A DNA stretch of 15,842 nt from Ignavibacteriales bacterium (GTDB lineage Bacteria > Bacteroidota > Ignavibacteria > T3Sed10-11): the NCBI GenBank assembly GCA_003560935.1, contig PWJF01000120.1, positions 1 through 15,842 of the forward strand, read 5' to 3'. Made by a program: the position numbers and the translations under genes. The notes below the pieces were generated by a model, which ran no database searches, was not told the origin of the DNA, and was given only the letters and a program-made list of their open reading frames with translations. This document shows, in pieces, positions 1,363-15,674 of the stretch. How positions within the stretch are numbered: the stretch's first letter is position 1; each line of letters starts with the position of its first letter.

Positions 1363-1783
1363 TCTTATTGGGTACCTCGTCCGGAAAGATAATCGGTATT
1401 TCTCCGGACGATGTAAAGATGTACGATATACTGTTGGAATATACTCAAAGATGACCGAAGTTTACTGGAAGCGGCACTCAATATAAATTCTCCGATCAGG
1501 AATATCAAATTCGAGAGCAAGTATTCAACCGGCCTGCGGGGAACAAGTCCAAATCTTGATATTATTCCGGTCGAAAGACTTAATATTGTCGAAGCCGACG
1601 GCAATCTTTCAATCGTACTTTCCGATTCCGACCGGGTGCCGCTTGCCACTATCGACGGTGTCATACTGATGACAATCCGTTTTAAAACAGTATATTGCCG
1701 GAAATACACAGAGAAACTGTATCACACTGATCGATACCGTATACTATCAAAGGGAAAAACAAACATATCAAGGAGAAACTACT
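1346..1783 (+). pseudogene. Frame-disrupted coding remnant upstream of the TM2 gene
   Basis: A ribosome site AAGGAG (1337-1342) precedes ATG at 1346. Three frames then look coding one after the other: MRVLYNLIG, then TSSGKIIGISPDDVKMYDIL and on, then DDRSLLEAALNINSPIRN through LSIVLSDSDRVPLATIDGV. Removing one base from GGG (1370-1372), one from AAA (1447-1449) and one from AAAA (1684-1687) joins them into a single frame that leads into the TM2 protein at 1784. All three corrections have the same sign and lie in homopolymers. This could be a decayed gene or read/assembly error. I do not recognise the family. The stretch 1216-1345 before it holds only the short methyltransferase-like remnant and A+T-rich sequence. 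Confidence 0.35.
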
Positions 1784-2381: not shown

Positions 2382-3866
2382 TTACACGATTCTTTCCGGG
2401 TCACTCAAGTCCGGTAACGGTCCGCGATAGCCGAAAATCCGCTGTATCCATTTTATCATTTTTACAGACTGTTTCCTTACATACCATTGATCGGCGGTGC
2501 GGCGGTTGCCGAGTGCGTAGGTGGGATACGGATGAATTGTGTCCGCCATTTGGCGGAGTGATATTTTATTTTTTATCGCAAGCACCCATTCGCCGAGCAT
2601 ATCGCCCGCGTGTGCTCCGAGTATATCGACACCGAGGATTCTGCCGTTCCATTTTTTTGCATACACCTTTATCCAACCTGTTGCCTCACGGTCGATGAGC
2701 GCACGGTCGATCTTTGCATAAGGAAATTTATAAATTTCGAAAGGCCCGCCCCTCTGACGTAGTTCATTCTCCGTTGCGCCGACATGTGCAAGCTCGGGGT
2801 CGGTATAGGTACACCATGGAACGTGTTTCGTATCGATCTTTATCGGAAGTTTGAGAAGTGCATTGCTCACTGCAACTTTTGCGGTATGCTCAGACATATG
2901 CGTAAACTGAAATCCGCCCGTGACATCGCCGCAAGCATAAATATTTTTTACCGATGTTCGTCCCCGATCGTTTACTACAATACCGGAGCGCGTGGACTTC
3001 ACTCCGGCTGCTTCGAGATTGAGTCCGTTTATATTCGGCTTTCTGCCTACCGATATCAATAATGCATCGCCGTAGACGGTGGATATTGACGGTCCATTTT
3101 TTTCTTCGACCGTCACCGCAATCGTTCCGTTTACCTTCTCTATCCGCTTCACACCGTTATTTAAGACAAAATTAATTCCTTCGCATGATAACGATTCGCG
3201 TAATATCTCCGTTAATTCTTTATTATCACGGATCAGTATCGAATCCATAAAGTCAATAACGGTCACCTGTGAATCGAACCGCCTGAACGACTGCGCCATC
3301 TCCATCCCGATCGGACCGGCGCCCACAATTATCAAATGTCCGGGTAGCTGGTCGATTTCAAAGATTGTCTCGTTCGTTAAAAAAGGAACATCCGATAATC
3401 CTTCTATCGGTGGGACAACCGGCGAGCTGCCGGTCGCGATAATAAAATACCGTGACGTGATTGTCTCGTCGTTTCGCTCGCCGTCGTCCAATATTATTGT
3501 ATATTTATCAACAAAGGAAGCGCGACCGTAAATCACTTCGATCCCCAGTTTTTCGAAATGATGCGGCGCGTCTGCTTCTTCATAGATTTCGTTTCGTGTT
3601 GTATGTACCTGCTTGATTACCTCGGCAAAATTAAATTTCGGTGCCGTATCCTTTAATCCGTATTTACCTGCGGTGCTTATTGTTCGTGCGGTCTTTGCCG
3701 CTTTGATAAGCGCCTTGCTCGGCACGCATCCGTACCAGGTGCAATCGCCGCCGAGCTTCGCCGCTTCGATCATTGCAGTCTTTGCGCCGAGCGACGCCGA
3801 AATTCCCGCCGCGGTCAGTCCGGCCGATCCACCTCCGATCACGACCATATCATAATCAGGCTTCAT
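2382..3866 (-). CDS. MerA/Lpd-like FAD/NAD(P) disulfide oxidoreductase
   Basis: This is a two-dinucleotide flavoprotein of the glutathione reductase/dihydrolipoyl dehydrogenase/mercuric reductase group, 494 aa and cytosolic. Visible are the FAD-binding GGGSAG (11-16), redox cysteines C42 and C47 in CTWYGCVPSK, an NAD(P)-binding GAGPIG (182-187), the second FAD motif ACGDV (311-315), and a C-terminal dimer domain with HPYPTYALG from H445. Databases often call such proteins mercuric reductase. This one has no N-terminal HMA domain and no C-terminal vicinal cysteines for Hg(II). The usual HPT-x-x-E catalytic pair lacks its Glu. An extra basic, aromatic tail of about 40 residues follows. The start overlaps the preceding gene by 11 nt, so it is the last gene of the arsenosugar operon. 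I infer a thiol/disulfide or arsenic-linked reductase of unknown substrate. Confidence 0.85.
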   Translation of the reverse strand: MKPDYDMVVIGGGSAGLTAAGISASLGAKTAMIEAAKLGGDCTWYGCVPSKALIKAAKTARTISTAGKYGLKDTAPKFNFAEVIKQVHTTRNEIYEEADAPHHFEKLGIEVIYGRASFVDKYTIILDDGERNDETITSRYFIIATGSSPVVPPIEGLSDVPFLTNETIFEIDQLPGHLIIVGAGPIGMEMAQSFRRFDSQVTVIDFMDSILIRDNKELTEILRESLSCEGINFVLNNGVKRIEKVNGTIAVTVEEKNGPSISTVYGDALLISVGRKPNINGLNLEAAGVKSTRSGIVVNDRGRTSVKNIYACGDVTGGFQFTHMSEHTAKVAVSNALLKLPIKIDTKHVPWCTYTDPELAHVGATENELRQRGGPFEIYKFPYAKIDRALIDREATGWIKVYAKKWNGRILGVDILGAHAGDMLGEWVLAIKNKISLRQMADTIHPYPTYALGNRRTADQWYVRKQSVKMIKWIQRIFGYRGPLPDLSDPERIV

Positions 3867-4191
3867 GAGCGACCTCTTTGATTTTTGAACGGACCTTCTT
3901 CAGCGTCGAATAGATTCCCGCGAGGACCAGCGCGGCTATTACGACATACACCCAATACGGCAGGTTTTCTCCCGCGATCATCAGATATACGTAGGCTGAA
4001 ATCGCACAGCAACACGCTGCAAAAACAGGAGGCATTATAGAGCGCTTAATTTTCAAATTATGCACCATCCACCCTACCGCAGCAAAGAAGAAGGGTATCG
4101 CCCCGACGTAGATACCACCGAATATATACGGATTGACGCCGTACTCTGCGCCGAGTCCGACAAACCACTCGTGTATTGTTGTGAAATCCAT
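3856..4191 (-). CDS. Small multi-spanning membrane protein of the arsenosugar operon
   Basis: The 111-aa product has three hydrophobic segments, at about residues 23-41 (YIFGGIYVGAIPFFFAAVGW), 51-67 (MPPVFAACCCAISAYVYLM) and 74-92 (YWVYVVIAALVLAGIY), and a basic C-terminal tail. I recognise no named family and give no function. A longer reading from a TTG at 4233, directly after the arsS stop, is possible. I prefer ATG at 4191 because the extra 14 residues are basic and unconserved-looking; neither start has a clear ribosome site, so coupling to arsS translation is likely. The 3' end overlaps the flavoprotein gene by 11 nt, which suggests tightly coupled expression. A membrane anchor or partner for the flavoprotein is a reasonable guess. 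Confidence 0.7.
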   Translation of the reverse strand: MDFTTIHEWFVGLGAEYGVNPYIFGGIYVGAIPFFFAAVGWMVHNLKIKRSIMPPVFAACCCAISAYVYLMIAGENLPYWVYVVIAALVLAGIYSTLKKVRSKIKEVAHEA

Positions 4192-4233
4192 ATGTTTTTT
4201 GTTTCGTGTTTTGGGTTTATAGACAATAATCAA

Positions 4234-5262
4234 TCACACCGCCGTCGTTCCCCCGCAACTACTTCCGTTTCCCGCCGTACACCCGAAGCAATGCGAATCG
4301 AATAAAATCCGGCGGCTCAGCAGCTCATCATGATCGAAATCGAAGACGGTTAACGGTTTCCCGTTTTGTATCTGCATATCGAGCATTTGATTAAAATCGC
4401 AATCGTAGATACGCCCGTCATAACCGACGCTGATGAGAGAACGGCACATCACTCCTTCGGCGGCGGCGGGGTTAAATGCATTGATCAATTTTTCCATGTA
4501 CTCCTCATACGTACCGGACCGAAGGAGAAATTCTCTGAACCGGTGTATCGGCATATTGGTTATGGTAAACAGCTTATTAAACACAAGATCGAATTTATCT
4601 TTCAATTCCCTTTTATAATCCTTCTCAAGGTTTTCCTGCGGCGGCGGCAAATATGTCCCGACCGGATTATAGACGAGGTTCAACTCCAGACCGGTATTTT
4701 CTTGTCCGTATCCCTGATTATTCAACAGGCGTATACTCTCGACACTTTTGTTAAAGACCCCCTTTCCGCGCTGTTTATCGGTAAAGAATTCCTGATAATA
4801 GGGAAGCGAGGAGATCACCTCCACTTTATTTTCGGCAAAAAACTCCGGTAAATAACGTTTGGATTCTCCCGTATGCGGATGACCGTCGAACGTAACAGTT
4901 AAGTTATGCCGGACCATAACGTGCTTGTTTAATTTCTTAGCTTCGAGCACAAAATAATCGAAATGCGGATGAAGTTCCGGAGCTCCTCCGGTGATATCGA
5001 GGTTAATAATCCGTTCGTTTTCCGTGAGTATCTCAAGGCAGCGGTCAACGGTACGTTGGTCCATCTCTTCCGTTCGTTTGGGAGAGGCATCTACGTGACA
5101 GTGATGACATGCTTGATTGCAAAGTTTCGCTATATTTACCTGTAAGGTTTCAATTAAAACCGGCTTCGGGTCAAGTTTACGGTTTTCTAAATTTCGATTA
5201 AAATCGTAATGAACACTCACATCAGGTTGAACCTGATTATTCAGTACATTCAATTCCCTCAT
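4234..5262 (-). CDS. arsS: Arsenosugar biosynthesis radical SAM protein ArsS
   Basis: ArsS-type radical SAM enzymes (TIGR04167) join a 5'-deoxyadenosyl group from SAM to dimethylarsenic, an early step to arsenosugars. The 342-aa protein shows the [4Fe-4S] motif CNQACHHC (C48, C52, C55), the SAM-contacting TGGAPELHP (91-99) and the family's Cys-rich C-terminal domain: C273, C288, then HCFGCTAGNGSSCGG with C325, C328 and C336. Some relatives carry selenocysteine near this end; here all are ordinary TGC/TGT Cys codons. Length fits the family. ATG at 5262 follows a GGGG-containing ribosome site. The neighbours (AhpD-like protein, TIGR04282/TIGR04283 glycosyltransferase) are the usual partners of arsS and strengthen the call. 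ArsM, which makes dimethylarsenic, is not in the window. Confidence 0.93.
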   Translation of the reverse strand: MRELNVLNNQVQPDVSVHYDFNRNLENRKLDPKPVLIETLQVNIAKLCNQACHHCHVDASPKRTEEMDQRTVDRCLEILTENERIINLDITGGAPELHPHFDYFVLEAKKLNKHVMVRHNLTVTFDGHPHTGESKRYLPEFFAENKVEVISSLPYYQEFFTDKQRGKGVFNKSVESIRLLNNQGYGQENTGLELNLVYNPVGTYLPPPQENLEKDYKRELKDKFDLVFNKLFTITNMPIHRFREFLLRSGTYEEYMEKLINAFNPAAAEGVMCRSLISVGYDGRIYDCDFNQMLDMQIQNGKPLTVFDFDHDELLSRRILFDSHCFGCTAGNGSSCGGTTAV

Positions 5263-5294: not shown

Positions 5295-5627
5295 TCAAAT
5301 ACCATTCCGTTTGAGTGCGTTATGCATCTGCACACCGTGGACCAGTGTAATACCCGCTTCCATCGCAGCTGCAACATGAACTGCTTCGGTCATCTGATCG
5401 GGATTTGCACCGGTTTCCAGACATGCCGTCGTGTATGCATCGATACAGTAGGGGCATTGTTTTGCATGGGCAACGGCAAGAGCGATCAAGGCCTTCTCGC
5501 GTTTGGTTAATGCACCGTCTTCCCCTGTGACGGTGTTATAATATTCAAAAAATTTATCGGCAAGCTCTTTACGGAAATCACCGATTTCACCGAATTTTTT
5601 TAAGTCTTTTGTTTCATAGTAGTGCAT
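5295..5627 (-). CDS. Arsenosugar-associated AhpD/carboxymuconolactone decarboxylase-like protein
   Basis: The 110-aa, all-helical protein belongs to the AhpD/CMD superfamily, whose members use a CxxC for peroxide or thiol chemistry. The motif CPYC (C58, C61) follows ALIALAVAHAKQ and is followed by IDAYTTACLETGAN and a C-terminal VHVAAAMEAGITLVHGVQM. The His that usually follows the second Cys in AhpD (CxxxH) is Tyr65 here; I recall the same Tyr in the arsS-linked subfamily. ATG at 5627 has a GGGGAA ribosome site. It lies 32 nt before arsS and 51 nt after the DUF3047 gene. The role in arsenosugar formation is unproven; redox support of ArsS or its product is plausible. Confidence 0.88.
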   Translation of the reverse strand: MHYYETKDLKKFGEIGDFRKELADKFFEYYNTVTGEDGALTKREKALIALAVAHAKQCPYCIDAYTTACLETGANPDQMTEAVHVAAAMEAGITLVHGVQMHNALKRNGI

Positions 5628-5678: not shown

Positions 5679-6443
5679 TTATTCGCCTGCAATCATATCT
5701 TTTCTTATAAATTTTATGTCGCCGTAATAGGCCACTGCAGATTCGCCGGTATCGTCAGTATCGGTCATTATAGCTATGCCGTTTATTCTCGGAGGTTCCG
5801 TACCGTAAATTTCAAGATAATCTTCATAGACATTGCGTTCATGCTCTACCCATGTACCAACGTTTCGATCTCCGCTCTCAACCACAATCATCATAACTAA
5901 ATCCGAATACGGATTCGGTACAACTGTGCCGACTTCTGCCGTACTTTCCCAGATATAATTTATAGCCCGCGTAGGTACCTCTCCGTAAAATATTCTGATG
6001 GCGCGAAGCAGCGTACGATTCCACCAGCTTAAATTACGGATATCGTAATCGAACGTCACATAAATCCGTGCCGGATAATCATCACCGGATTTCTTTGTCA
6101 CATCACCCTTTTCGATTATATTCTCGGCTCTCCATGTCCATCGCAATACGGGATACTCTTCCGGATCTATATCTACTCTCCGTATCAGTCCGGACGCCGA
6201 TTTATTGCCGACAGCCCTAATCACAACTTTCCCGTCGATCTCATGTAAACGGTATTCGGTGTCTTTTTTTCCGCGGAAACTCAAGGGTTCCCAGAGATCG
6301 GGGAGTTTATCCTCGATATAGTAGGTGGAAAATGAACCGGCATAATAAACCGGGGGATTATATATAGGTGCAGTCATACAGGTCGTCACCGTCAATAGCG
6401 GAAGTACAAATTTCAACAATATATATCCTTTTCGTTCGATCAT
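5679..6443 (-). CDS. DUF3047 protein, probably exported or membrane-anchored
   Basis: This 254-aa protein resembles the DUF3047 family: a beta-rich domain with VLRWTWRAENIIEKGDVTKKSGDDYPARIYVTFDYD around residues 98-134, then a conserved TRAINYIWESTAEVGTVVPNPY, and ending near YYGDIKFI. Residues 7-24 form a hydrophobic segment after a basic start, a likely signal peptide. VTTC at 19-22 is a poor lipobox because the residue before Cys is Thr. I therefore place it in the envelope without choosing lipoprotein. Its ATG overlaps the stop of the glycosyltransferase gene in an ATGA, indicating translational coupling. The biochemical function is unknown. Its presence inside the arsenosugar operon suggests it handles or binds an exported or glycosylated product. 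Confidence 0.75.
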   Translation of the reverse strand: MIERKGYILLKFVLPLLTVTTCMTAPIYNPPVYYAGSFSTYYIEDKLPDLWEPLSFRGKKDTEYRLHEIDGKVVIRAVGNKSASGLIRRVDIDPEEYPVLRWTWRAENIIEKGDVTKKSGDDYPARIYVTFDYDIRNLSWWNRTLLRAIRIFYGEVPTRAINYIWESTAEVGTVVPNPYSDLVMMIVVESGDRNVGTWVEHERNVYEDYLEIYGTEPPRINGIAIMTDTDDTGESAVAYYGDIKFIRKDMIAGE

Positions 6444-7753
6444 AGATGTGAAGACCTTTGTCCGGTTTGATTATATCTCCAACGAGTGAGATCATCGAAC
6501 GTATCGATATCCATTATGACAGGTAAACGGTAATAACGAAGTCCGATCTCGTTCATTCTTTTAACTGTTTCATCGAACACGTTTTCGCTGCTCCACGGGA
6601 TACCGTTGAATAATTCCGGATAAAATTGTTTCATACCGAGAAGATAGTAACCGCCATCTTCGGCCGGACCGATGACGACATCGTGTGTATCCAAACGATG
6701 AATCGCATTATCTATGATCTCTCCGGTAAGATCGGGAGAATCAGTACCGATAATGACGACTTTTCGCATCGCATCGCGAAATACTTTCTGTAAGGAGTAT
6801 TTAATTCGTTCTCCCAAATCCCTTCCTTGCTGCACGTGCAACAGAAAACCGTTTTTCGTCCAGGAATTTATTTTCTTACCGTCACCCGGATCGGCATAAA
6901 ATATATACCGGTGTGTGATCGTTTTTGTTTGTTCGGATTCGAAAAATATTTTTTCCGCCCACTGCTTGTAAAGTGCCGTTGCTCTTTCATTACCGATGAT
7001 CGATGCGAGACGGGTTTTTACTTTTCCCGGCTCCGGATATCGGGCAAAAACAATCAGGGCATTTCTCATCCGTTTCATCCGTAAGCTTTCATATCGTCGT
7101 GCAATCTCCTCGACCGGAACGTTGCATATAAACTGCACCGTAAAATAGATATTATACAGTTGCTGACGAACAATTCCGTTTTCCACGAACCGTCTGGCGG
7201 AGGTCGTCACATATGCCGGCAGTTTTGTTATCTTCTTTTTCAAACGCCGTACGCGCCGGAGGAACTCAAGGTCTTCGAACAGCATCCAATCAGGAAATCC
7301 GCCTGCTTGTTCGAATGTTTCCCTCCGCACGGTGATACATTGATCGCCGAAACTGGTAAAGACCGAATCGAAATGCGTAAACCACGAATATAATGCAAAC
7401 CACCTGCTCGAATGGTCGAACTTCATTCGAAACAATGCTGCATCGCATTTCGGATTTAAAAAATACCGTTCGAGCTGAAAGTACGCATCGCCGGGTAATT
7501 CCGTATCGGCATGAAGAAAAATCAGGACGTTGCCTCGGGCAAAACGCGCACCGGCATTGCACTGGATTCCACGGCCCTTCTTCGATTCAACGACCCTCGC
7601 TCCCATCCGCGAAGCGATAGAGCGCGTTGCATCCGTGCTTCCGCCATCGGCGACGATTATCTCGATATCCGGAATCGTACGCTTCACCGATTTAATACAG
7701 GATGCGATCCCGTCCTCTTCGTTTATAGTTTGTATTATAACGGAATATTTCAT
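6440..7753 (-). CDS. Fused glycosyltransferase: TIGR04283 domain plus TIGR04282 (DUF2064) domain
   Basis: Two arsenosugar-linked transferase domains that are commonly separate genes are joined in one 437-aa protein. Residues 1 to about 225 are a family 2 glycosyltransferase (TIGR04283 type): SVIIQTINEEDGI, VADGGSTDAT, KGRGIQCNAGA, the metal/nucleotide-sugar loop FLHADTELP (79-87) and LFEDLEF (158-164). From about 231 the DUF2064/TIGR04282 nucleotidyl-glycosyltransferase-like domain begins with LIVFARYPEPGKVKTRLA (233-250) and has GTDSPDL (336-342), GPAEDGGYYLLG (362-373) and DIDTFDDL (415-422). Both active sites look intact. It follows the mini-thioredoxin gene by 9 nt and overlaps the DUF3047 start by 4 nt. 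I infer it builds or decorates the sugar part of the arsenosugar product; donor and acceptor are unknown. Confidence 0.9.
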   Translation of the reverse strand: MKYSVIIQTINEEDGIASCIKSVKRTIPDIEIIVADGGSTDATRSIASRMGARVVESKKGRGIQCNAGARFARGNVLIFLHADTELPGDAYFQLERYFLNPKCDAALFRMKFDHSSRWFALYSWFTHFDSVFTSFGDQCITVRRETFEQAGGFPDWMLFEDLEFLRRVRRLKKKITKLPAYVTTSARRFVENGIVRQQLYNIYFTVQFICNVPVEEIARRYESLRMKRMRNALIVFARYPEPGKVKTRLASIIGNERATALYKQWAEKIFFESEQTKTITHRYIFYADPGDGKKINSWTKNGFLLHVQQGRDLGERIKYSLQKVFRDAMRKVVIIGTDSPDLTGEIIDNAIHRLDTHDVVIGPAEDGGYYLLGMKQFYPELFNGIPWSSENVFDETVKRMNEIGLRYYRLPVIMDIDTFDDLTRWRYNQTGQRSSHL

Positions 7754-7762
7754 ATCAAGTCA

Positions 7763-8020
7763 CTACCCGGAATAAACACTATAAACTTTCTTTTTAATAT
7801 CCTCGGGTGATACTTCGCCGTAAAACATAAGTACACCTTCGATAAAAATAGCCGGCGTAATTACTACTTTTCGTTCCCTGAACACATCCTTGTTTTTCTC
7901 GCGCCGGTAAACGATTACGTCAAGCGGCATCCCGGATTGAAGATTGCGTATGGAATAAAGTGCCCCAACACACGCTTTACAACCTGATTCAATAAATACT
8001 TCGAGTCTTACTTTTCTCAT
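7763..8020 (-). CDS. Mini-thioredoxin/glutaredoxin-like protein, first gene of the arsenosugar operon
   Basis: The 85-aa product has the thioredoxin fold in its shortest form: beta strand VRLEVFI, redox pair CKAC (C14, C17), and the cis-proline loop VITPAIFIEG with P56. It resembles the small thioredoxin_3-like proteins. The function is presumably dithiol transfer, perhaps as electron donor to the ArsS-linked steps. A longer reading from a TTG at 8053 exists. I choose ATG at 8020 because the fold begins right there and the extra residues are non-conserved. No ribosome site precedes either start. The predicted transcription start (about 8022) is only two bases upstream, so translation may be leaderless. 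The gene is 9 nt ahead of the glycosyltransferase gene. Confidence 0.8.
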   Translation of the reverse strand: MRKVRLEVFIESGCKACVGALYSIRNLQSGMPLDVIVYRREKNKDVFRERKVVITPAIFIEGVLMFYGEVSPEDIKKKVYSVYSG

Positions 8021-8041
8021 AATGTATGAATATACATTATG
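8018..8041. promoter_or_regulatory. 10+10 bp perfect palindrome over the -10 box and start codon
   Basis: CATAATGTAT (8018-8027) and ATACATTATG (8032-8041) are exact reverse complements around a 4-nt spacer. On the - strand the palindrome contains the predicted -10 hexamer TATATT (8034 down to 8029) and the ATG of the mini-thioredoxin gene. Such a position suits a repressor operator, for example of the ArsR/SmtB type. The same sequence could also form a hairpin that hides the start codon. The regulator is not identified. Confidence 0.5.
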
Positions 8042-8055
8042 GATTAGACTCAAGA

Positions 8056-8071
8056 TGTCAGATAAACGACA
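8056..8071. promoter_or_regulatory. CooA/CRP-type operator, arsenosugar operon
   Basis: TGTCA-GATAAA-CGACA at 8056-8071 has the 5-6-5 layout of CRP-family sites and equals the R. rubrum CooA consensus TGTCA-N6-CGACA as I recall it. Its centre lies 41.5 bp before the transcription start (about 8022) implied by the TATATT hexamer at 8029-8034 on the - strand, i.e. class-II activator spacing. It sits in the gap between the upstream Crp-type gene and the arsenosugar operon. Confidence 0.55.
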
Positions 8072-8080
8072 GAAACGGAG

Positions 8081-8773
8081 TTATATACCGATTTTTTTCA
8101 ATCGGGATAAATCATTAATGGTTATCTGTTTCCGGTCGAAATCGATTATTTCCTGGGTTCGCAGCTCGTTTAAGGTAGATGTGACGGTCTGGCGGGCAGC
8201 ACCGGTAAGAAAACCCAGCTCTTGATGAGATAACGGCGGTTTAATCGTAATAACACCGGATTTTATCATGCCGAATTCTTCGGCATACCGAACTAAAAAA
8301 CTTGCTATCCGTTTTTTAACATCTTTAAAGACGAGTTCGGTGACGCGTTCCTCGACTTTCCGTAAACGATTGCCAACCTCTTTGGTTACACGGAAATTTA
8401 ATTCGGGATACTTCCTCAGCATTTTTTCAAAATCCGATCTCAGCATATTACAGATCAACACTTCGCCGATGGCAGTGGCAATTTCATTCCGATCTTCGGT
8501 ACCTTCGGTATATAACAATTCACCGAATACCTCGCCCGGTCCGATAATATCAAGGATAATTTCTTTGCCGTCTTCGGATATGCGGGAAATTTTGACATGC
8601 CCCTTTTTTAAGAAATAAATACAACGGGAAGGTTCGGCCGGAAAATAGACCGGATCGGTTGTTTTGAACGTACACATAGCCGCCAGTTTATCGACGGCCT
8701 TCATAGTTTCTTCATCCAGCCCCTCAAAAATATTAAAATGCCTTAAATACCAAAACTTCGATTTCTCCTCCAT
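8081..8773 (-). CDS. Crp/Fnr-family regulator 1 with CooA-like DNA-recognition helix
   Basis: This cytosolic 230-aa transcription factor has an N-terminal cyclic-nucleotide-binding-like sensor (about 12-125, with YFLKKGHVKISRIS and IIGPGEVFGEL), a dimerisation helix (130-165) and a winged helix-turn-helix (182-207). The recognition helix GAARQTVTSTLNEL places R194, Q195 and S199 where E. coli CRP has R180, E181 and R185. Arg-Gln there is the CooA arrangement. The CooA haem ligands (Cys-x-His in the sensor) are absent, as is the N-terminal Cys cluster of Fnr. The effector is unknown. It starts 5 nt after the stop of its paralog and ends 60 nt before the arsenosugar operon, so it probably controls that operon. 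The weak ribosome context suggests coupling to the upstream gene. Confidence 0.9.
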   Translation of the reverse strand: MEEKSKFWYLRHFNIFEGLDEETMKAVDKLAAMCTFKTTDPVYFPAEPSRCIYFLKKGHVKISRISEDGKEIILDIIGPGEVFGELLYTEGTEDRNEIATAIGEVLICNMLRSDFEKMLRKYPELNFRVTKEVGNRLRKVEERVTELVFKDVKKRIASFLVRYAEEFGMIKSGVITIKPPLSHQELGFLTGAARQTVTSTLNELRTQEIIDFDRKQITINDLSRLKKIGI

Positions 8774-8778
8774 ATAAA

Positions 8779-9471
8779 TTATTTATCCATTTTTTTTAGC
8801 TGATTGTAGTTCTTTATGAGAAATTGTTTACGATCGAAGTCAATAATATCCTCGCTTCTCAGCTTATTGAGAACGGTGGTGACCGTCTGCCGGGCACAAC
8901 CGGTTAAATAGCCGATATCCTGATGAGAGAGAGTGGGTTTTATTGTAACGACACCGTCCTTGATCTTGCCGAATTCTTCCGCATACTTTGCCAGGAACCC
9001 GACAACCCTACTATTAACATCCTTGAACATCAGATCGGGTATACGCTCTTCGAATTTACGTAGCCGGAGTCCCATCCATTTTGTCACACGGAGATTAAGA
9101 TCGGAATTTTCGCGCATCATTGATTCGAAATCTTTTACCCGCATCGTACAGATAAGGACATCATCCATCGCCTGCGCAATTTCGTCCCGATCGCGCTCGG
9201 GATCGACGATTCCGAGCTCGCCGAATAATTCACCCGGACCGATAATATCGAGGATTACTTCCTGCCCTTCGGGTGAAATACGCGATATTTTCACCCTTCC
9301 TTCTTTGAGAAAGAATATAGAGGAAGACTGCTCGTCGGGAAAATAAATCGGTTGGCTTGCTTTGACGGTCGACATCGTAGTCATATCGTTCAGCTTCATC
9401 ATCGTCGCTTTGTCGACGCTTTCGAGGATGTTGAAATGCTTCAGATACCAGAATTTGGTTTTTTCAGCCAT
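8779..9471 (-). CDS. Crp/Fnr-family regulator 2, tandem paralog
   Basis: This regulator is also 230 aa and is similar to its neighbour along the whole length: both begin (M)xEKxKFWYLxHFNI, share KISRIS, ILDIIGPG and FGEL, and end DFDRKQ followed by QLKK or RLKK. The recognition helix GCARQTVTTVLNKL keeps R194 and Q195 but has T199. The sensor domains differ more than the DNA-binding domains (for example ELGIVDPERDRDEIAQ here against ELLYTEGTEDRNEIAT), which suggests similar DNA targets with different signals. I reject a longer reading from 9768 because its extra 99 residues are antisense to the end of the amidase gene and look non-coding. ATG at 9471 matches the paralog's start exactly. It is the first gene of the pair; a possible promoter lies at 9513-9540. 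Confidence 0.9.
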   Translation of the reverse strand: MAEKTKFWYLKHFNILESVDKATMMKLNDMTTMSTVKASQPIYFPDEQSSSIFFLKEGRVKISRISPEGQEVILDIIGPGELFGELGIVDPERDRDEIAQAMDDVLICTMRVKDFESMMRENSDLNLRVTKWMGLRLRKFEERIPDLMFKDVNSRVVGFLAKYAEEFGKIKDGVVTIKPTLSHQDIGYLTGCARQTVTTVLNKLRSEDIIDFDRKQFLIKNYNQLKKMDK

Positions 9472-9512
9472 AGTGTATCCGGGGAATATATGGGGATTAT
9501 TTTTATTTATCG

Positions 9513-9540
9513 ATATTATTGTAACATTCTTAAAGTCGAA
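9513..9540 (-). promoter_or_regulatory. Possible sigma70-type promoter for the Crp/Fnr pair
   Basis: Read on the - strand, TTCGAC (9540-9535) and TAATAT (9518-9513) are separated by 16 nt in the 82-nt gap between the amidase stop and the regulator start. Both hexamers are imperfect and the region is A+T-rich, so this is only a candidate. I see no TGTCA-type palindrome here, so simple autoregulation by that motif is not supported. Confidence 0.3.
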
Positions 9541-9553
9541 AATAATTCCCGGA

Positions 9554-11224
9554 TTAATTATCCATTGATGGATGTTTTTTGTGATAACCGGTCGCTTTCT
9601 GGAACTCGTACGCCAGGGATAGAATTCTCCCCTCATCAAACAATCGTCCCGTAAAACTGATACTTGTCGGTGTGCCCTGTTCGGAGAATCCGTTCGGAAC
9701 AACCACACACGGGTGACCGCTGAGGTTGGTAAGCAAGAGATTCGGACCCTGCCACGACGGAGCGACATACAGATCGACCGTCCCCATCAATTCATGCATC
9801 CGTTGAATAAGTTCGTACCTGATCCTGTTAGCATTGATATATTCGACCGCGGGTACGAATCTTGCTTGCCGGAAAACATTCGGCCAGGCATTTTTGATTT
9901 GCCTTACCATGAGACTATCTCTTCCGCTTCGTGTTAACTCATCGAACGCAGCCGCCGCTTCCACGCTGAGTATAAAACTGAGAGCCGAGACCGGTAAATC
10001 AGGAAGCTCGATCGGTACAAGTTCGGCGCCGAGATTCCGCAGTACTTCAAGCGACAGCGAATCCTGTGAATGGAACGGATAGTCTGCTTCAAAATCTTTT
10101 TTCACATATCCGATGCGCAGCTCAGATATATTGATGTCCGGATTATAAGAAAACGGGAAATCATATACCGTTCGATCTCTTCCATCGGGACCAAGAATTG
10201 CATCGAATACGATAGCGGCATCTTCGGCATTTCGGGTAAGCGGTCCTACTTTGTCCATCGACCAGCTTAACGCCATCGCACCGTATCTGCTTACTCGTCC
10301 ATACGTCGGGCGCAGGCCGGTAACTCCGTTAACCGTCGCGGGCGATACGATCGATCCCCACGTCTCGGTTCCGATTGCGAACGGTACAAGTCCCGCCGCC
10401 ACCACTGCCGCAGAGCCGGCGGATGAACCGCTCGATCCCTGTGTTATATCCCACGGATTGCGGGTTCTGCCGCCGAACCACACATCGCCCCATGCAAGCG
10501 CGCCAAGGGTAAGCTTCGCAACGAGAACCGCACCGGCTTCGTCAAGTTTTTGTACCACGGTTGCGTCATAGTCGATCATCTGGTCTTTAAACGGTACGGC
10601 ACCCCATGTTGTTTTATAACCTCTGGTGGAAAACAGATCTTTAATTCCATATGGAATGCCGTGTAATGGACCGCGATAATTGCCCGCAGCAATCTCTTCG
10701 TCGGCTTCCCGGGCTTTCTGTATTGCATGTTCTTCGGTAAAGGTAATGACACACTCAAGCACCGGATCGAATTTTTTCAGTCTGTCAAGATAAAATTCCG
10801 TAAGTTGTATTGATGTTATCTGACGGGTCCTGATCAATCCGGCAAGTTCACGGATTGAATAAAAGGCGAGATCGTCGGGATCATCGGGCAATTGAACATT
10901 GGAAAGGTTCTCTAAATCCAATCCGCTATCATTAGTATCGAAAGAATAACCCAAAGGAAGCGGGTCGAACGTCAGCGCAGGCGGTATGCTGTTATTCAAT
11001 CCATATGCGCGAATGGCTTCGTAACTCGAGCGGTATTGTGAAAGGCCATCGATCATGGAATCCCGCTCTGCTTCGGAGAAACTAAGTCCTATTATGTTTT
11101 CCGCATGTGAGATATTTTCTATCGTGATATTATTTTGTTCGGCCGGTATGATATACAGTACGCCGAAGAATACAAATCCCGCTAACGTGCCGCAGACGAA
11201 GTATTTAAGTTCTTTCCGAATCAT
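9554..11224 (-). CDS. Amidase-signature family hydrolase, membrane-anchored or exported
   Basis: This 556-aa member of the amidase signature family (relatives: GatA, FAAH, plant and bacterial amidases) hydrolyses amide bonds with a Ser-cisSer-Lys triad. The triad is visible: K195 in GIPYGIKDL, S267 in the Gly/Ser-rich stretch GSSGSSAGSAAVVAAG, and nucleophile S291 in GTETWGSIVSPA. The alignment to GatA K79/S154/S178 keeps the 24-residue Ser-Ser spacing. Residues 8-27 are a hydrophobic helix after a basic start, so the enzyme is anchored in the inner membrane or exported. About 115 residues of acidic, Asn-rich sequence precede the catalytic domain. This is not GatA, which is cytosolic. ATG at 11224 follows GGAG. 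It stands 88 nt after the Omp85 gene in the same direction. Substrate unknown. Confidence 0.88.
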   Translation of the reverse strand: MIRKELKYFVCGTLAGFVFFGVLYIIPAEQNNITIENISHAENIIGLSFSEAERDSMIDGLSQYRSSYEAIRAYGLNNSIPPALTFDPLPLGYSFDTNDSGLDLENLSNVQLPDDPDDLAFYSIRELAGLIRTRQITSIQLTEFYLDRLKKFDPVLECVITFTEEHAIQKAREADEEIAAGNYRGPLHGIPYGIKDLFSTRGYKTTWGAVPFKDQMIDYDATVVQKLDEAGAVLVAKLTLGALAWGDVWFGGRTRNPWDITQGSSGSSAGSAAVVAAGLVPFAIGTETWGSIVSPATVNGVTGLRPTYGRVSRYGAMALSWSMDKVGPLTRNAEDAAIVFDAILGPDGRDRTVYDFPFSYNPDINISELRIGYVKKDFEADYPFHSQDSLSLEVLRNLGAELVPIELPDLPVSALSFILSVEAAAAFDELTRSGRDSLMVRQIKNAWPNVFRQARFVPAVEYINANRIRYELIQRMHELMGTVDLYVAPSWQGPNLLLTNLSGHPCVVVPNGFSEQGTPTSISFTGRLFDEGRILSLAYEFQKATGYHKKHPSMDN

Positions 11225-11312
11225 GGTGCGCTCCGTTTATGAAAGGTCGGATATTGTTAATAAAGGATAAAAGGTTATGAAAGATGGAGGAATTATTTAA
11301 GAAAGTCAATCG

Positions 11313-12773
11313 CTACCATACTCCCCGTCCGATCTGAATGTGATACTGCCAGCCCGGTTTTTCGGGACGCCGGTCGGGAGGAGCGAACACAGTATCAAAT
11401 CCGTATGCATAATCGAATCCGATCATACCAAGCCACGGGACATTAATACGAATGCCGAAGCCTGCTGATCTGCGCAGATCACGGAATCGTATATCCCGGA
11501 GTTCTTCCCAGACATTTCCAGTCTCTGCAAATGCGAGTAGAAAAACAGTGAATGGATCCAGAATAGGAGCGTACCGTAATTCTACTGTATAAGCTGCGAT
11601 TGCTTGTCCGCCGACCGGATTCCCCTCGTCATCGACTGGCCCCACGCTTCGGTCTTTATAACCTCGCAGCGGAATCGTGTTAAACTGACCGAGACCGGTG
11701 CCGCCCATGAAGAAAAGTTCAACCGGAGGTATTCTCGACGCATCGTTTATTGGAAATAACGACGCGGTTTTTGTTTTCACGGCAAGAACAATTCTTTTCG
11801 AATTAAAGAGCGACGCATACCAATTTGCATCCATCATATGACGGTGAAAATCAACGGTACCGGGCAACAGAGGGCCTCCCGCGATTTCATTGGTAATCGA
11901 GATATCGGATCCCCTTGTTGGAAACACCGGATGATCTGTGCTATTGCGGCCGATAATCTGTGCAACGCCGAAATGTGTCGATATGCCGGGAAGAAATATA
12001 TCCTGACCTTCTTCTACATCGTTCCGTTGCCAGCGTATAATCCACGTCCCGCGAAAATAATCGTCGGGCCATTGAAACCGCCTGCCGATCCGGAGCGCTG
12101 CACCAGTCCGCCGATGATCGATAAATATTCTCTGCCGTGTATCGAATAAGTCGACACCGAATAAAGTGGGAGTATCGTATAACCAGGGTTCGGTAAATGA
12201 GATACGGAACGTTCTGAATGTACCCGGCTCACCGAATTGCCAGTCGAGCTGCAACTGCTGCCCCGCGCCGCCGCGAAACGGGCGCCGCAGGTCGAAATTA
12301 TTAAAGCTTACTCCAAGACCGCCCGTTAATCCGAAACCGGGCGTATATCCCACCGATGCGTTGTATGTATCGCTGGATTGTTCTTCAAGATTATACACGA
12401 TGTTTACGGTTTCGTCGTCCTCGAACTTAAGTTCGGGCTGAATTGATTCTGGTTTGAAATAATTAAGCTGCTGCAGTGTGCTGACGCTGCGAATCAGATT
12501 CTCACGGGAAAAATAGTCTCCGGGAATCGTGTAGAGTTCTCTGCGTATGACACGTTCCTGGGTTCTCGTATTACCGCTGATTATAACCCGCCCGATGCGA
12601 AACCGACCGGGTACTTCTTCGCCGGGTTGCATAATTATGCTATCTCTTGTGCCGCATCGATTCAGATTGCCGGACGGACCGTTCTCCGAATGTTCGACAT
12701 TTATCTCAAATGCTTTGATCGTCAATGCAGCGACTAATATTCCGGAATAAAATACTACCGTGTGAAATCGCAT
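11313..12773 (-). CDS. Short Omp85/BamA-like outer-membrane protein with one POTRA domain
   Basis: The 486-aa protein has a hydrophobic signal segment (1-22), one POTRA-like domain (about 57-132: IGRVIISGNTRTQERVIRREL through VNIVYNLEEQ) and an Omp85 beta-barrel (about 135-486). The barrel carries the loop-6 motif LRGY (369-372), a repeated aromatic/Gly pattern and a C-terminal Trp, the usual barrel-insertion signal. BamA normally has five POTRA domains and about 800 residues, so this is not the house-keeping assembly factor; a dedicated translocation or assembly paralog is likelier. No TamB- or TpsA-type partner is next to it. A TTGACA-like box lies at 12835-12830, but a good -10 is not at standard spacing. 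The ribosome site GGAGG is 13 nt before the ATG, rather far. Confidence 0.85.
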   Translation of the reverse strand: MRFHTVVFYSGILVAALTIKAFEINVEHSENGPSGNLNRCGTRDSIIMQPGEEVPGRFRIGRVIISGNTRTQERVIRRELYTIPGDYFSRENLIRSVSTLQQLNYFKPESIQPELKFEDDETVNIVYNLEEQSSDTYNASVGYTPGFGLTGGLGVSFNNFDLRRPFRGGAGQQLQLDWQFGEPGTFRTFRISFTEPWLYDTPTLFGVDLFDTRQRIFIDHRRTGAALRIGRRFQWPDDYFRGTWIIRWQRNDVEEGQDIFLPGISTHFGVAQIIGRNSTDHPVFPTRGSDISITNEIAGGPLLPGTVDFHRHMMDANWYASLFNSKRIVLAVKTKTASLFPINDASRIPPVELFFMGGTGLGQFNTIPLRGYKDRSVGPVDDEGNPVGGQAIAAYTVELRYAPILDPFTVFLLAFAETGNVWEELRDIRFRDLRRSAGFGIRINVPWLGMIGFDYAYGFDTVFAPPDRRPEKPGWQYHIQIGRGVW

Positions 12774-13000
12774 GATGAAACAGCAGCCTCCATCAATTCC
12801 AGAAATAACAGCGACGAACTGGAAAATATTGTCAACACCGCTTAAGATACGAAAAATAAACTATTCTTTGTGGTCTGTTAATGAAATACGCGGGAAGACG
12901 TTTTAAACAATTCAGAGATGAGGTGCTCAAATCATGTAAGTTCGCCGCAGGTTATACAGATTATTCCCTTATCCTGTTTCAGAATCAGTGCAATCCGTGG

Positions 13001-13047
13001 CTTTATTTATTTAAATATGCAGGTACGCTCAGGAGAACGTACCTGCA
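13001..13047 (-). terminator. Hairpin with A/T-rich tail after the DsrE gene
   Basis: TGCAGGTACG (13018-13027) and CGTACCTGCA (13038-13047) form a perfect 10-bp stem with a 10-nt loop. It lies 24-53 nt after the dsrE-type stop on the - strand and is followed by TATTTAAATAAATAAA. The tail is A/T-rich but not a pure U run, so termination strength is uncertain. The rest of the 12774-13070 gap holds the Omp85 leader; I see no gene in it. Confidence 0.55.
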
Positions 13048-13070
13048 CAATGGAGATAGAGTGCTATGTG

Positions 13071-13427
13071 TTAGAATGTTACGACGTGGTAGCCCTTATC
13101 GAGATATTGCTTCAGACTCGGATGACCTTCATATTCATCGAGTAATTTGACGCCCGACGATTGCACGGCATTTTTTACTCCAAATGCGCCCGCACAGAAA
13201 CTGCACACACCAGAAATTTTATCTCTTATCGCAACATAATGATTATGCAGCTTATGATCCTCCTTTTCAAGTTCCGGCACCCATTTGGCGCCTGCACCGT
13301 CGAATATAAGCGTTACATCCTCGTTCGATTCTTTATACTCCTTCGTTAATTCCAGGGCATTCAACATTCTTCCCATATTTTCGTGTGTATCGGTATCTGC
13401 CATTACTACTACTGCTGCTTTGGACAA
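13071..13427 (-). CDS. DsrE-family sulfur-relay-like protein
   Basis: The 118-aa cytosolic protein has the DsrE/F fold: an initial strand AAVVVMADTDTHENMGRMLNALELTKE, a central VTLIFDGAGAKWV, then VCSFCAGAFGV with C75 and C78, and KLLDEYEGHPSLKQYLDKGYHVVTF at the end. DsrE/TusD relatives carry persulfide sulfur on a conserved Cys; C78 (in CAGAFG) is the likely one. Translation starts at TTG (13427): AAGGAG lies eight bases upstream and no ATG is in frame near it. It follows the thioredoxin gene by 30 nt, so the two form an operon ending at the hairpin at 13001-13047. The partner protein in sulfur transfer is not evident. Confidence 0.82.
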   Translation of the reverse strand: MSKAAVVVMADTDTHENMGRMLNALELTKEYKESNEDVTLIFDGAGAKWVPELEKEDHKLHNHYVAIRDKISGVCSFCAGAFGVKNAVQSSGVKLLDEYEGHPSLKQYLDKGYHVVTF

Positions 13428-13457
13428 TTAGATTACTCCTTTCTTGATAATTAGTGA

Positions 13458-13853
13458 TTAATTTAAGTATGCCGTTAGTTTATTACGTAACTCATCTACA
13501 CTGATTTGATGCGTTATTCGCTCCTTGATTTTTCCGCTTTCGGGATCGATGAGAAGCAGCAATCCTGTCTGCCCTCCGAATTCCCTCTGAACATGATCAA
13601 GACCGAGAAGCCGTGCGTGCAGCACAGATTGTTCCTGTGCAAACTCATCGGTTTGATCGAATACTGCAAAGAGAACGCCCTTCCCTTTGAATTCTTTTTT
13701 CACCTCGTCGACTTTCGGATCGAGGGTTTTGCATTTTCCGCACCAATCCGCATACATCCGGAGCGCTATCAGTTCCGGTTCACTCTCATTTTCACCCGTT
13801 ATTACCGGCAATGAGATAAGGACAATCATCAAAAACGACATTACATATTTCAT
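13458..13853 (-). CDS. Exported thioredoxin-like protein lacking the cis-proline
   Basis: The 131-aa product has a signal peptide (1-20, MKYVMSFLMIVLISLPVITG) and a thioredoxin domain with ADWCGKCK (C38, C41), so it works in the periplasm or at the membrane. The loop that should hold the cis-proline reads EFGGQTGLLLLIDPESG, with no Pro before the final strand. That is unusual and may alter substrate release or redox potential. ATG at 13853 is chosen over an upstream ATG at 13871 because GGGAGG is correctly spaced for it and the signal peptide begins there. It leads the two-gene unit with dsrE. A CooA-type site is centred about 88 bp upstream. Confidence 0.83.
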   Translation of the reverse strand: MKYVMSFLMIVLISLPVITGENESEPELIALRMYADWCGKCKTLDPKVDEVKKEFKGKGVLFAVFDQTDEFAQEQSVLHARLLGLDHVQREFGGQTGLLLLIDPESGKIKERITHQISVDELRNKLTAYLN

Positions 13854-13933
13854 GTTGCTTCCTCCCTGCATTAAGTAATCATTGATTGTTTTGAGTTAAC
13901 ATGGTTAATTTACGAAATTTCACTGGGCAATAC

Positions 13934-13949
13934 TGTCAGAAAGATGACA
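13934..13949. promoter_or_regulatory. CooA/CRP-type operator, thioredoxin-dsrE operon
   Basis: TGTCA-GAAAGA-TGACA at 13934-13949 is a perfect 5-6-5 palindrome. On the - strand a -10-like TAAATT (13912-13907) lies 29.5 bp from the palindrome centre, placing the start near 13900 and the site at -41.5. The flanks match the site before the DUF3179 gene (CTTGTCA ... CTGACAG on the - strand). Confidence 0.5.
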
Positions 13950-13972
13950 AGTCACGATAGATGCAGTACCTT

Positions 13973-14200
13973 ATGTTACGCAAAAATAGAAAGGTCCACT
14001 AAAACTCTAAATCCCAATATCGAAATCCGGTCACGTCCTGAACAATTTTCAAATTACCCAAATTAAAATGTTCAAAACTTCCTGAATTCATGCTGTTTTG
14101 GACATTAAAACATTAGAATTTAGACATTGTTTAGGATTTAGAAAATTAGTGCTTAGGATTTTCATCAGCTAAAGAATCAAAGTACTATAATGCGTAACAT
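13973..14200. repeat. Foldback element bounded by 10-bp inverted repeats
   Basis: ATGTTACGCA (13973-13982) and TGCGTAACAT (14191-14200) are exact inverted repeats. Between them a long imperfect palindrome pairs about 14001-14078 with 14095-14163 around a 16-nt loop; the inner arms include TTCAAAAC (14071-14078) against GTTTTGGA. CATCAGCTAA occurs twice as a direct repeat (14163-14172 and 14198-14207). No gene is present from 13872 to 14212 apart from the promoter signals near 13900-13949. It may be a miniature mobile or intergenic repeat. It is read outward into the end of the DUF3179 gene. Confidence 0.6.
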
Positions 14201-14212
14201 CAGCTAATACCT

Positions 14213-15328
14213 CTACTGCCCGTATATCTCGCTTTCAGGATGAAACGCCAACCACGCAAATGCAAAGTGATTACCGTGGAACATCCACGGAAGCTGTGTG
14301 CCTTCAAGTTCGCCTTCTACGGCTTTGCCCGATATATTCCAGCGTGTGCCGGTTTGGTCGTCAATAAATCCTCTGTCGGTTTTCCGGAACGTCAATCGCT
14401 TTCCGTTTACAACCGGATCGAATACGCTCACCGCTCCGACATCCCTTCCTTCGGAAATATCAGGTGTATCTAATACCGACACGGTTCCTTCCTGAAAGAA
14501 TATCGCAACGCGTTTTCCAAACGGGTCATCATTAATTACGCCTTCTTTCTGAATTTTTGAGAGTGGATAAATTATATGATCCTCGTTTACCGAAATATTT
14601 ATAACCCGTTCCATTGCCGGTAATCGGTCGTCTACTTCACCGTCAAATAGCCGCGGCCTGTCGACGCCAAGATCGTCGTATTGTACATAAGGATTTGAGC
14701 CATAATCCCGAAGCGCACCGGTTTCCGTGGAGAGTACTTTCCCATCGGGATAGCTTTCGGTAAACTCCTCAAAGGAAATAAGCAGCGACGGTACCATAGT
14801 CAATTGTGCCTCTGCGAGTTTTCCGACGATTCCTTCACCTGTTAGTTGCTGCCACCACGTCTCCGTTTGGCGGTCCCACATCACCAGGTCGCTTTTACGC
14901 AGCATACCGGAAGTACCGAAATCAAGCAATAATTCCCTGCCATCGTGTTGGAGCCGCCGGTCGAACACGATCGCTGCGTTACAGAGCGGGCAATAGGTTA
15001 CCGAGACCGGTTTCCCGCCGACGACATCGTTCACAATCTCGTGCCACATTAAAATGCTCAATGGATATGCCCGCGCATCGCCGTCAATATCCACAACCAT
15101 AACGGGTTCGTGCTCAAAAAAAGTATTTTTCGCACGTTTAATATCCCAATAGACCGGGTCGTCTATCGGCGGTATCCTGTCGCGCGGAAGCAGTGCAACG
15201 ATCTCATTGAGATCGACGATACGGTTTTCTTTGTCCGTATTCCATTCCTGCCCGACGCGTTCGATGTTTCGTTGTGCAAATGCGGGTAAGCTCATGAGAA
15301 CTATGAGTAGTATTCCGATTAATTTCAT
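14213..15328 (-). CDS. Exported DUF3179 protein
   Basis: The 371-aa product has a signal peptide ending near PAFAQ (15-19) and the DUF3179 domain over most of its length. Recognisable parts are the early DLNEIVALLPRDRIPPIDDPVYWD, DGDARAYPLSILMWHEIVND, the conserved Cys pair in VTYCPLCNAAIVFDR, GMLRKSDLVMWDRQTETWWQQLTGEGIVG, and the C-terminal HFAFAWLAFHPE. The family's biochemical function is not known; the CPLC pair and Trp/His-rich pattern hint at metal or thiol chemistry in the envelope. ATG at 15328 is preferred to the longer reading from 15364, because AAAGGAG lies just upstream and the signal peptide begins there. A CooA-type palindrome is centred 75 bp before the start. Confidence 0.88.
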   Translation of the reverse strand: MKLIGILLIVLMSLPAFAQRNIERVGQEWNTDKENRIVDLNEIVALLPRDRIPPIDDPVYWDIKRAKNTFFEHEPVMVVDIDGDARAYPLSILMWHEIVNDVVGGKPVSVTYCPLCNAAIVFDRRLQHDGRELLLDFGTSGMLRKSDLVMWDRQTETWWQQLTGEGIVGKLAEAQLTMVPSLLISFEEFTESYPDGKVLSTETGALRDYGSNPYVQYDDLGVDRPRLFDGEVDDRLPAMERVINISVNEDHIIYPLSKIQKEGVINDDPFGKRVAIFFQEGTVSVLDTPDISEGRDVGAVSVFDPVVNGKRLTFRKTDRGFIDDQTGTRWNISGKAVEGELEGTQLPWMFHGNHFAFAWLAFHPESEIYGQ

Positions 15329-15395
15329 AGTAACACTCCTTTTGTTATATGATTTAATTTTCATATAAAGAATAAGAAATCGGGATATGGAAATC

Positions 15396-15411
15396 TGTCA
15401 GCAGGGTGACA
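15396..15411. promoter_or_regulatory. CooA/CRP-type operator, DUF3179 gene
   Basis: TGTCA-GCAGGG-TGACA at 15396-15411 is a perfect 5-6-5 palindrome. On the - strand TATTCT (15374-15369) lies 29.5 bp from its centre, putting the transcription start near 15362 and the leader at about 34 nt. Beyond it (15412-15470) is a simple-looking tract with GTTTTCGGTTTTCGG, in which I see no gene. Confidence 0.5.
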
Positions 15412-15480
15412 AGGGGGGTTCCAGTTGCCGGTTTACAGTTTTCGGTTTTCGGGGGTCGGTTGGTTAGTTGTATTTAGTAA

Positions 15481-15630
15481 TTACTGCTTACTCCGATGAT
15501 GTTTACGAGCTTGGTACATACGTTCGGTGATGCCGCCATCTTCTAAAAATTGCTTTTCGAGTTGACGCAGTTGCTGATCGAGGAGATAGTTTGTTTGGTG
15601 TATAAGGCAAATGTATGCAAGTTTTCTAAT
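15481..15630 (-). pseudogene. C-terminal fragment of a four-helix-bundle suffix-domain protein
   Basis: The - strand frame reads LAYICLIHQTNYLLDQQLRQ and continues to FLEDGGITERMYQARKHHR before its stop at 15481. I recall this as the ending of proteins with a four-helix-bundle suffix domain, relatives of the S23/23S-rRNA-intervening-sequence family. The frame stays open upstream to 15669, but only from a TTG with no ribosome site, and residues before LAYIC look non-coding. The four-helix part is absent. I read it as a truncated leftover lying in the short gap after the phosphogluconolactonase gene. Confidence 0.5.
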
Positions 15631-15674
15631 TGGGAAGCAGTATTTTACAAAGGTAGGGAAAATATACAATAAAT

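Follow-up and report, generated by a model that had tools for sequence, protein, structure and literature searches.

What could tie an arsenosugar-type operon, a thioredoxin-dsrE gene pair and a DUF3179 gene to one another on a single stretch of bacterial DNA? We pursued this question in a contig of an Ignavibacteriales bacterium (GTDB lineage Bacteria; Bacteroidota; Ignavibacteria; T3Sed10-11; assembly GCA_003560935.1, contig PWJF01000120.1, positions 1 to 15,842 of the forward strand; hereafter the window, i.e., the whole 15,842-nt stretch), in which each of these gene groups is preceded by a palindrome of the form TGTCA-N6-(T/C)GACA (sites A, B, and C, Table 1). It is very likely, judging from sequence comparisons, that a CRP/FNR-family activator, i.e., one or both of the tandemly encoded proteins CrpA and CrpB, uses these palindromes as operators and that they form the class-II switch of what would be a metalloid/thiol regulon. 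The window is contig C484 of the genome G000 (2.95 Mb, 574 contigs, 79% complete), which was compared with five relatives of the same genus (G001-G005) and with 119 class genomes sampled from a larger group (L numbers denote individual loci or contigs examined).

Palindromes and promoter geometry

The pattern TGTCA-N6-(T/C)GACA has seven matches over both strands of the window, falling in four places, vs. a mean of 0.06 matches in 200 dinucleotide shuffles of the same sequence. Three of these places had already been pointed out in an earlier note made from the letters alone, together with their minus-strand -10-like hexamers, and our pattern search recovered all of them, each hexamer beginning exactly 21 bp past its palindrome (i.e., 29.5 bp from the centre). 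The same note had seen no further copy, which was an oversight, as a fourth exact palindrome exists, though without the promoter geometry: the hexamers 21 bp away on its two strands, TGCCGG (1/6) and ACCCGG (0/6), are not -10-like. This copy may well have arisen by chance, since about three exact TGTCA-N6-TGACA copies are expected in G000 from the base composition of the window vs. nine seen (none for the reversed control), and having no -10 at 21 bp it is probably no regulon site and was rejected as a member. Counted from the -10 hexamers, transcription is predicted to start near 8022, 13900, and 15362. The first ATG of operon A lies 7-9 nt past the -10 hexamer in G000, G003, G004, and G005 (8 nt in the window, 8018-8034), and a leaderless mRNA is therefore predicted.

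Table 1 Palindromes, promoter hexamers and predicted genes of the window
Feature	Position	Strand	Remarks
Site A, palindrome TGTCGTTTATCTGACA (minus-strand reading)	8056..8071	-	5' of Trx3-arsenosugar operon (operon A), ~10 bp past crpA stop codon
-10-like hexamer of site A, TATATT	8029..8034	-	Same letters in G000, G003, G004, G005
Site B, palindrome TGTCATCTTTCTGACA (minus-strand reading)	13934..13949	-	5' of trx-dsrE (operon B)
-10-like hexamer of site B, TAAATT	13907..13912	-	Relatives: TACATT, TATACT, TATAAT, TATACT
Site C, palindrome TGTCACCCTGCTGACA (minus-strand reading)	15396..15411	-	5' of DUF3179 gene
-10-like hexamer of site C, TATTCT	15369..15374	-	TATTAT in G002
Fourth exact palindrome	1659..1674	.	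Without -10-like hexamer 21 bp away
crpA, CRP/FNR-family protein (cNMP-binding, HTH_Crp_2)	8081..8773	-	Recognition helix GAARQTVTSTLN; Cys108
crpB, tandem paralog	8779..9471	-	58% identical to CrpA; likely start 9471 instead of mechanical 9768
Thioredoxin_3-like protein (Trx3)	7763..8020	-	First gene of operon A; small
TIGR04283 + TIGR04282 arsenosugar glycosyltransferase fusion	6440..7753	-	Both above cut-off
DUF3047 protein	5679..6443	-	
Arsenosugar biosynthesis-associated peroxidase-like protein (TIGR04169, CMD)	5295..5627	-	Above cut-off
ArsS radical SAM protein (TIGR04167)	4234..5262	-	429 bits, cut-off 300
Small protein of operon A	3856..4233	-	No family match above its cut-off
FAD disulfide oxidoreductase, MerA/DLDH-like	2382..3866	-	Below cut-off of all 25 NCBIfam models shown
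Thioredoxin-like protein, operon B	13458..13871	-	N-terminal signal-like stretch, by eye
DsrE-like protein, operon B	13071..13427	-	
DUF3179 protein	14213..15328	-	Ribosome-binding site and signal-like stretch favour start 15328 over listed 15364, by eye

The spacing was examined without selection: every exact palindrome of the six genus genomes (34, genic ones included) was taken, and the better-matching strand of each was scored for hexamers at offsets of 5-49. A match of at least 4/6 to TATAAT was found at offset 21 for 24 of the 34 palindromes, vs. 12/34 at the next best offsets, a background that bears out the earlier caution that 4/6 matches to the -10 are not rare. Similarly, all 24 promoters that we listed (a set gathered as regulon members) have the -10 at 21 bp and none has a -35-like hexamer (at least 4/6, spacers of 15-19 bp). 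Their consensus consists of TGTC and GACA (24/24 each), C before TGACA (19) and G behind it (21), followed after 21 bp by T(A/T)NNNT. According to PMC5957442, the Crp motif of class-II promoters is centred at -41.5, and the promoters described here appear to match this pattern, with the site 41.5 bp from the predicted start, a -10, and no -35. We infer class-II activation because a single fixed distance separates palindrome and -10 and because a -35 is missing.

Distribution and conservation of the sites

How far does the motif extend beyond the window? Allowing up to one mismatch, 78 matches are present in G000 vs. 34 for the control, and the combined class-II pattern (TGTC-N8-GACA-N21-TANNNT) has seven vs. 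none for its reversed control. Sites A, B, and C are among these seven, three more matches belong to two palindromes of contig C378 and one lies on C397. The six genus genomes together contain 28 strand-wise matches to the class-II pattern (24 distinct palindromes) vs. 7 for the reversed control, although such counts from related genomes are mutually dependent and collapse to about seven promoter groups. The exact palindrome alone occurs 34 times vs. 5 in the control within the genus and 137 vs. 92 times in 55 class genomes outside it (all sums made by hand from the tables), making it a weak class-wide signal by itself, and the palindrome combined with a spaced -10 discriminates better. Regulon-type promoters on other G000 contigs (C378, C31) rule out that the motif is confined to the window. 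Of the "local regulon" proposed earlier, the regulon has thus survived while its local character has not, as it is genome-wide.

Most exact palindromes of the genus genomes (24/34) lie outside any called open reading frame, in keeping with the enrichment outside genes that had been anticipated, and 10/34 lie inside one. These frames were called mechanically (at least 60 aa), genes cut at the 5' side of a contig being missed, and those over the site L100:9637 (66 aa) and over the fourth palindrome of the window are doubtful.

Conservation upstream of orthologs, also foreseen in the note, is evident for all three sites. G004 and G005 keep the synteny of the locus, as does G003, where it is spread over two contigs. 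With G000 included, all four genomes having the gap orthologous to that of site A contain this site (TGTC and GACA unchanged), all five having the gap of site B contain site B, and site C occurs in all six genus genomes. The contig bearing site C carries no more than 39 N-terminal residues of the DUF3179 gene in G003 and none of the gene in G005. Half-sites show 100% ungapped pairwise identity in five ortholog groups, and the 40 bp upstream 30-47%, the range for sites A, B, and C being 32-47%. The promoter pattern also brought in new members. One is a 616-aa protein of G005 with a Pfam DsbD_TM match, whose counterparts in G003 and G004 have the same promoter and share 83-84% identity with it. 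Others are the P316-DUF3179 operon of G003, G004, and G005 (compared with the P316 gene of G003, those of G000, G004, and G005 show 72-75% identity) and, in G005, a second DUF3179 gene. A DsbD-type promoter is found on contig C31 of G000, which ends shortly past the site and before the gene, so that membership was assigned there by promoter similarity.

CrpA and CrpB and their association with the motif

Both CrpA and CrpB have PF00027 and PF13545 matches above cut-off and can be assigned to the CRP/FNR superfamily on this basis, and they are the probable activators of the sites. We scanned the neighbourhoods of CrpA homologs at 43 of at least 80 loci (25 in the helix and residue comparison, 23 in the site listing, 12 in the inspection of neighbouring genes). 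Among the matches listed, TGTC-N8-GACA was found no more than 112 bp downstream of 9/11 homologs with 50-61% identity from other metagenome-assembled genomes (most of them labelled Bacteroidetes or Ignavibacteria) and no more than 104 bp downstream of 2/3 with 41-45% identity, and at 39% identity or less the motif was seen within 400 bp on either side in 1/27. Two loci of genus members in this set have the downstream motif as well.

In the class sample, 18 of the 119 genomes (four of them of the own genus) encode a CrpA homolog (E <= 1e-40), and as established by two separate searches, in 13 of these 18 the same strand carries a class-II site no more than 120 bp downstream of the homolog (G000, G003, G004, G005, G007, G022, G031, G037, G075, G100, G101, G104, and G105). 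Outside the genus, the 14 homolog-bearing genomes contain 42 class-II matches vs. 18 in the control, and the 99 genomes without a homolog 56 vs. 99 (Mann-Whitney for homolog-bearing vs. other genomes, p = 5e-7; control, p = 0.27; kinship ignored). Cys108 is invariant in 13/13 close CRP-type sequences. Of the phosphate-binding cassette of cAMP-dependent CRP (Glu, Arg, Ser), Glu85 is invariant in 23/23, and Arg95 is invariant in the eight genus sequences and absent in L131, L132, L134, and L138. Asn or Asp occupies the Ser position of the cassette in CrpA and CrpB.

Probable target genes

Operon A is predicted to be of the arsenosugar biosynthesis type, with ArsS and the glycosyltransferases above NCBIfam cut-offs. 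Similar functions recur at more distant sites. In a distant Ignavibacteriae contig (L135), a site is followed after 21 bp by TATATA and then by genes for a phosphate transporter, an ArsM-like protein (below the cut-offs shown), a glycosyltransferase, and ArsS. ArsR-type, MerT, and CsoR-type genes stand behind a CRP-type gene in L136 (similarly, by eye, in L137 and L138), and MerA above cut-off is encoded in L137 and upstream in L250. Sites followed by a Trx3-like gene are present in the window and in L100, L101, L102, L250, L253, and L255. Thiol chemistry and thiophilic metals form the common theme of these loci. The table of prokaryotic selenoprotein families in PMC9312934 moreover lists DsrE, DUF3179, CMD-like proteins, MerT, and mercuric reductase.

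Several observations concern the surroundings of these genes. The P316 protein (L107, 4387-5337) has about 316 aa and, in related copies, an ACCSSGTPLLS-type N-terminal motif behind a signal-like stretch, and it matched no Pfam or NCBIfam family. Its gene adjoins a DUF3179 gene in L107, L108, L109, L137, L234, and L259, and a second L137 copy does not. In L234 (3768-3890), two palindromes, TGTCTTCCCGGCGACA and TGTCATCCAGCCGACA, separate the P316-DUF3179 genes from a divergent gene that by eye resembles a LytTR response regulator (in L109 the divergent gene is one by Pfam), and the first of them has -10-like hexamers 21 bp off on both strands. A gene of the AhpC/TSA family diverges from trx-dsrE across the same palindrome in G005 (L101, 1214-1972; Pfam match), G003 (L103, 1338-2100; 70% identical), and G001 (L063, 2223-2988; 88% identical), with TACTAT, TACCAT, or TACTCT 21 bp off on the other strand, and no such gene is present in the corresponding gap of the window or of G004. 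Mechanically called starts look overlong for crpB (9472-9768) and for the DUF3179 gene (15329-15364).

An isochorismatase gene of the window (403-1080, in the region 180-1210) is flanked by the arms of a 19-nt inverted repeat (360-378 and 1084-1102, 95% complementary) and by a 31-nt direct repeat (189-219 and 1092-1122, 77%), with GTTATGC / GCATAAC contained in these flanks. The flanks would be attC-like sites, which gives the unit the look of an integron gene cassette. Another isochorismatase-family gene, in G003 (C354, 909-951), is preceded by a palindrome with a 6/6 TATAAT at 21 bp, in this one genome only.

A proposed class-II regulon and its alternatives

We postulate that a dimer of CrpA and/or CrpB would bind TGTC(A/G)-N6-(T/C)GACA with its centre 41.5 bp ahead of the transcription start and that, once bound, it would activate a -10-only promoter 21 bp away, i.e., class-II activation. 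Such a switch would turn on the Trx3-arsenosugar operon, trx-dsrE, the DUF3179 genes, the P316-DUF3179 operon, and the DsbD-like protein. The regulon could defend the cell against thiophilic metalloids and metals (arsenic, mercury) or related thiol oxidation by converting arsenic and by providing reductant both within the cytoplasm and beyond it, and the signal would be thiol-reactive, possibly read by the invariant Cys108. The earlier suggestion that Trx-DsrE, DUF3179, and the arsenosugar operon share a regulon of class-II geometry is supported by the ortholog conservation, the spike at offset 21, and the co-occurrence with CRP-type genes. A bolder proposal, to which we give rather little credence at present, is that CrpA and CrpB make up a new subclass of CRP/FNR-family sensors, haem-free and relying on Cys108 to detect thiophilic metalloids or reactive sulfur/thiol oxidation. 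Their regulon, occurring across Bacteroidota-related lineages, might link the synthesis of arsenosugars and the detoxification of mercury with exported thiol relays and DUF3179 proteins.

Some results weigh against activation of these genes by CrpA or CrpB. ArsM above its family cut-off was found in neither G000 nor G005 (it is present in 4/6 genus genomes), leaving the complete arsenosugar route putative, and the ArsM-type loci L267-L272 (the match and up to ~1.5 kb on either side) contain no exact TGTC-N8-GACA. The ArsS gene of G001 stands in a different context, with no site (up to one mismatch) within the 12 kb examined, and no ArsS was found in G002. In neither of these two genomes (68% and 81% complete, respectively) was a CrpA homolog found, though both have sites. 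In five of the 18 homolog-bearing genomes (G025, G030, G065, G074, and G085), the homolog is not directly followed by a class-II site: such a site of G030 (L258) lies ahead of a Trx3-led gene series of which the regulator is part, L140 (by coordinates probably G025) is arranged likewise with the hexamer CATATT, and G085 (L259) has a palindrome without a -10, 17 bp downstream of the homolog. Finally, no TGTC-N8-GACA was seen within 400 bp of Saprospiraceae-type homologs sharing the RQTVT helix (L147, L148, L150, L151, L153, and L159), which rules out this helix as a sufficient predictor of the motif.

Could the whole pattern be fortuitous, with chance palindromes in A/T-rich gaps meeting chance -10 matches? 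The frequency of lone 4/6 hexamers and the palindromes inside called reading frames would fit such an origin, but the persistence of the sites at orthologous promoters in 4, 5, and 6 genomes, the half-site conservation, the spike at offset 21 only, and the low reversed-control counts of the class-II pattern make it extremely improbable, and we rejected it. The regulator might instead repress, or act both ways, as CRP-type proteins are also able to repress and a palindrome overlapping the -35 region could block RNA polymerase; the Trx-gap palindrome of G001, G003, and G005 even faces two divergent -10-like hexamers. We regard this as unlikely, given that a repressor would need no fixed distance, whereas one centre-to--10 distance is kept in six promoter groups, and that the lack of a -35-like hexamer in all 24 promoters is what class-II activation predicts.

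The site may also be bound by another protein, either a true CooA-type sensor of carbon monoxide (CO) or a CRP/FNR protein encoded elsewhere. The core of the CooA operator consensus TGTCGGCNNGCCGACA is TGTC...GACA, going by PMC545781, some sites outside the genus come nearer to it (e.g., TGTCGGGTAGCCGACA in L137), further CRP-type genes exist in G000 (C397 and C513), and G001 and G002 have sites but no detected CrpA homolog. Such a binder nevertheless seems improbable, since CrpA and CrpB lack His77 and Cys75 of CooA and retain a segment that CooA must lack (PMC12937710), the catalytic subunit of CO dehydrogenase (TIGR01702) was found in one of the six genus genomes (G003) and not in G000 (79% complete), and the class-II site lies right downstream of the crpA homolog in most genomes that have one. 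No CO gene was seen at any inspected site. CrpA and/or CrpB acting as class-II activators thus remains our preferred explanation.

A CRP/FNR regulon with class-II promoters is of a known kind. What appears to be new, within the literature searched (subscription papers being mostly outside it), is the set of genes it comprises, together with the combination of a regulator without the CooA haem ligand and an operator core of the CooA type, and no report on the regulation of arsenosugar genes was found in that same literature. For these genes, we now propose a regulator together with its operator and the geometry of the promoter, all of them testable. DUF3179, P316, and the DsbD-like protein would be placed in a common response, by which the function of DUF3179 becomes testable, and a CooA-type operator core alone is no evidence of CO sensing.

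Comparison with known systems

The system resembles CooA in the TGTC-N8-GACA operator core, the R-Q-T core of the recognition helix, and the CRP-type domains. The earlier note had assigned the half-site to CooA while seeing no CO-oxidation gene: a CooA-like half-site it is, but the regulators are without the haem ligand and are not CooA. Cys75 is a ligand of the CooA haem. The stretch MFCMHSG of Rhodospirillum rubrum CooA (PDB 1ft9) aligns with VFGELLY in CrpA, leaving neither His77 nor Cys75 (C-M-H replaced by G-E-L), and in CrpA and CrpB the stretch from the FGEL motif to the C helix exceeds that of CooA by about nine residues, with the gap position set by the alignment program. As CooA haem is held by His77 and Pro2 and the segment equivalent to EcCRP 72-82 must be absent (PMC12937710), the missing ligand and the retained segment exclude CrpA and CrpB from CooA. 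Furthermore, the full GGC..GCC extension of the CooA operator is found in 0/24 genus promoters (half of it, GCCGACA, in one on C378 of G000), and the targets are thiol and metalloid genes, not those of CO oxidation.

Class-II CRP promoters of Escherichia coli share the palindrome at -41.5 of the predicted start, the -10, and the absence of a -35-like hexamer. They differ in the half-site, which is TGTGA for E. coli CRP and TGTC(A/G) here, and cAMP would be only one possible effector in our case. The closest solved structures are those of mycobacterial CRP (MtbCRP), GlxR, and NtcA, and the modelled fold of CrpA appears alike overall (MtbCRP or GlxR chains take Foldseek ranks 1-16 and 19, with TMq 0.69-0.88 and 25-30% identity; NtcA chains follow from rank 21). 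MtbCRP, however, has Glu in the recognition helix where CrpA has Gln, a residue that would have a role in reading TGTC, and the effector-pocket residues are kept only in part. With the ars and mer operons controlled by ArsR/SmtB and MerR, the system has overlapping target functions, i.e., the handling of metalloids and mercury, but its regulator belongs to the CRP/FNR family, and in L136 (by eye also in L137 and L138) an ArsR-type gene adjoins the CRP-type gene.

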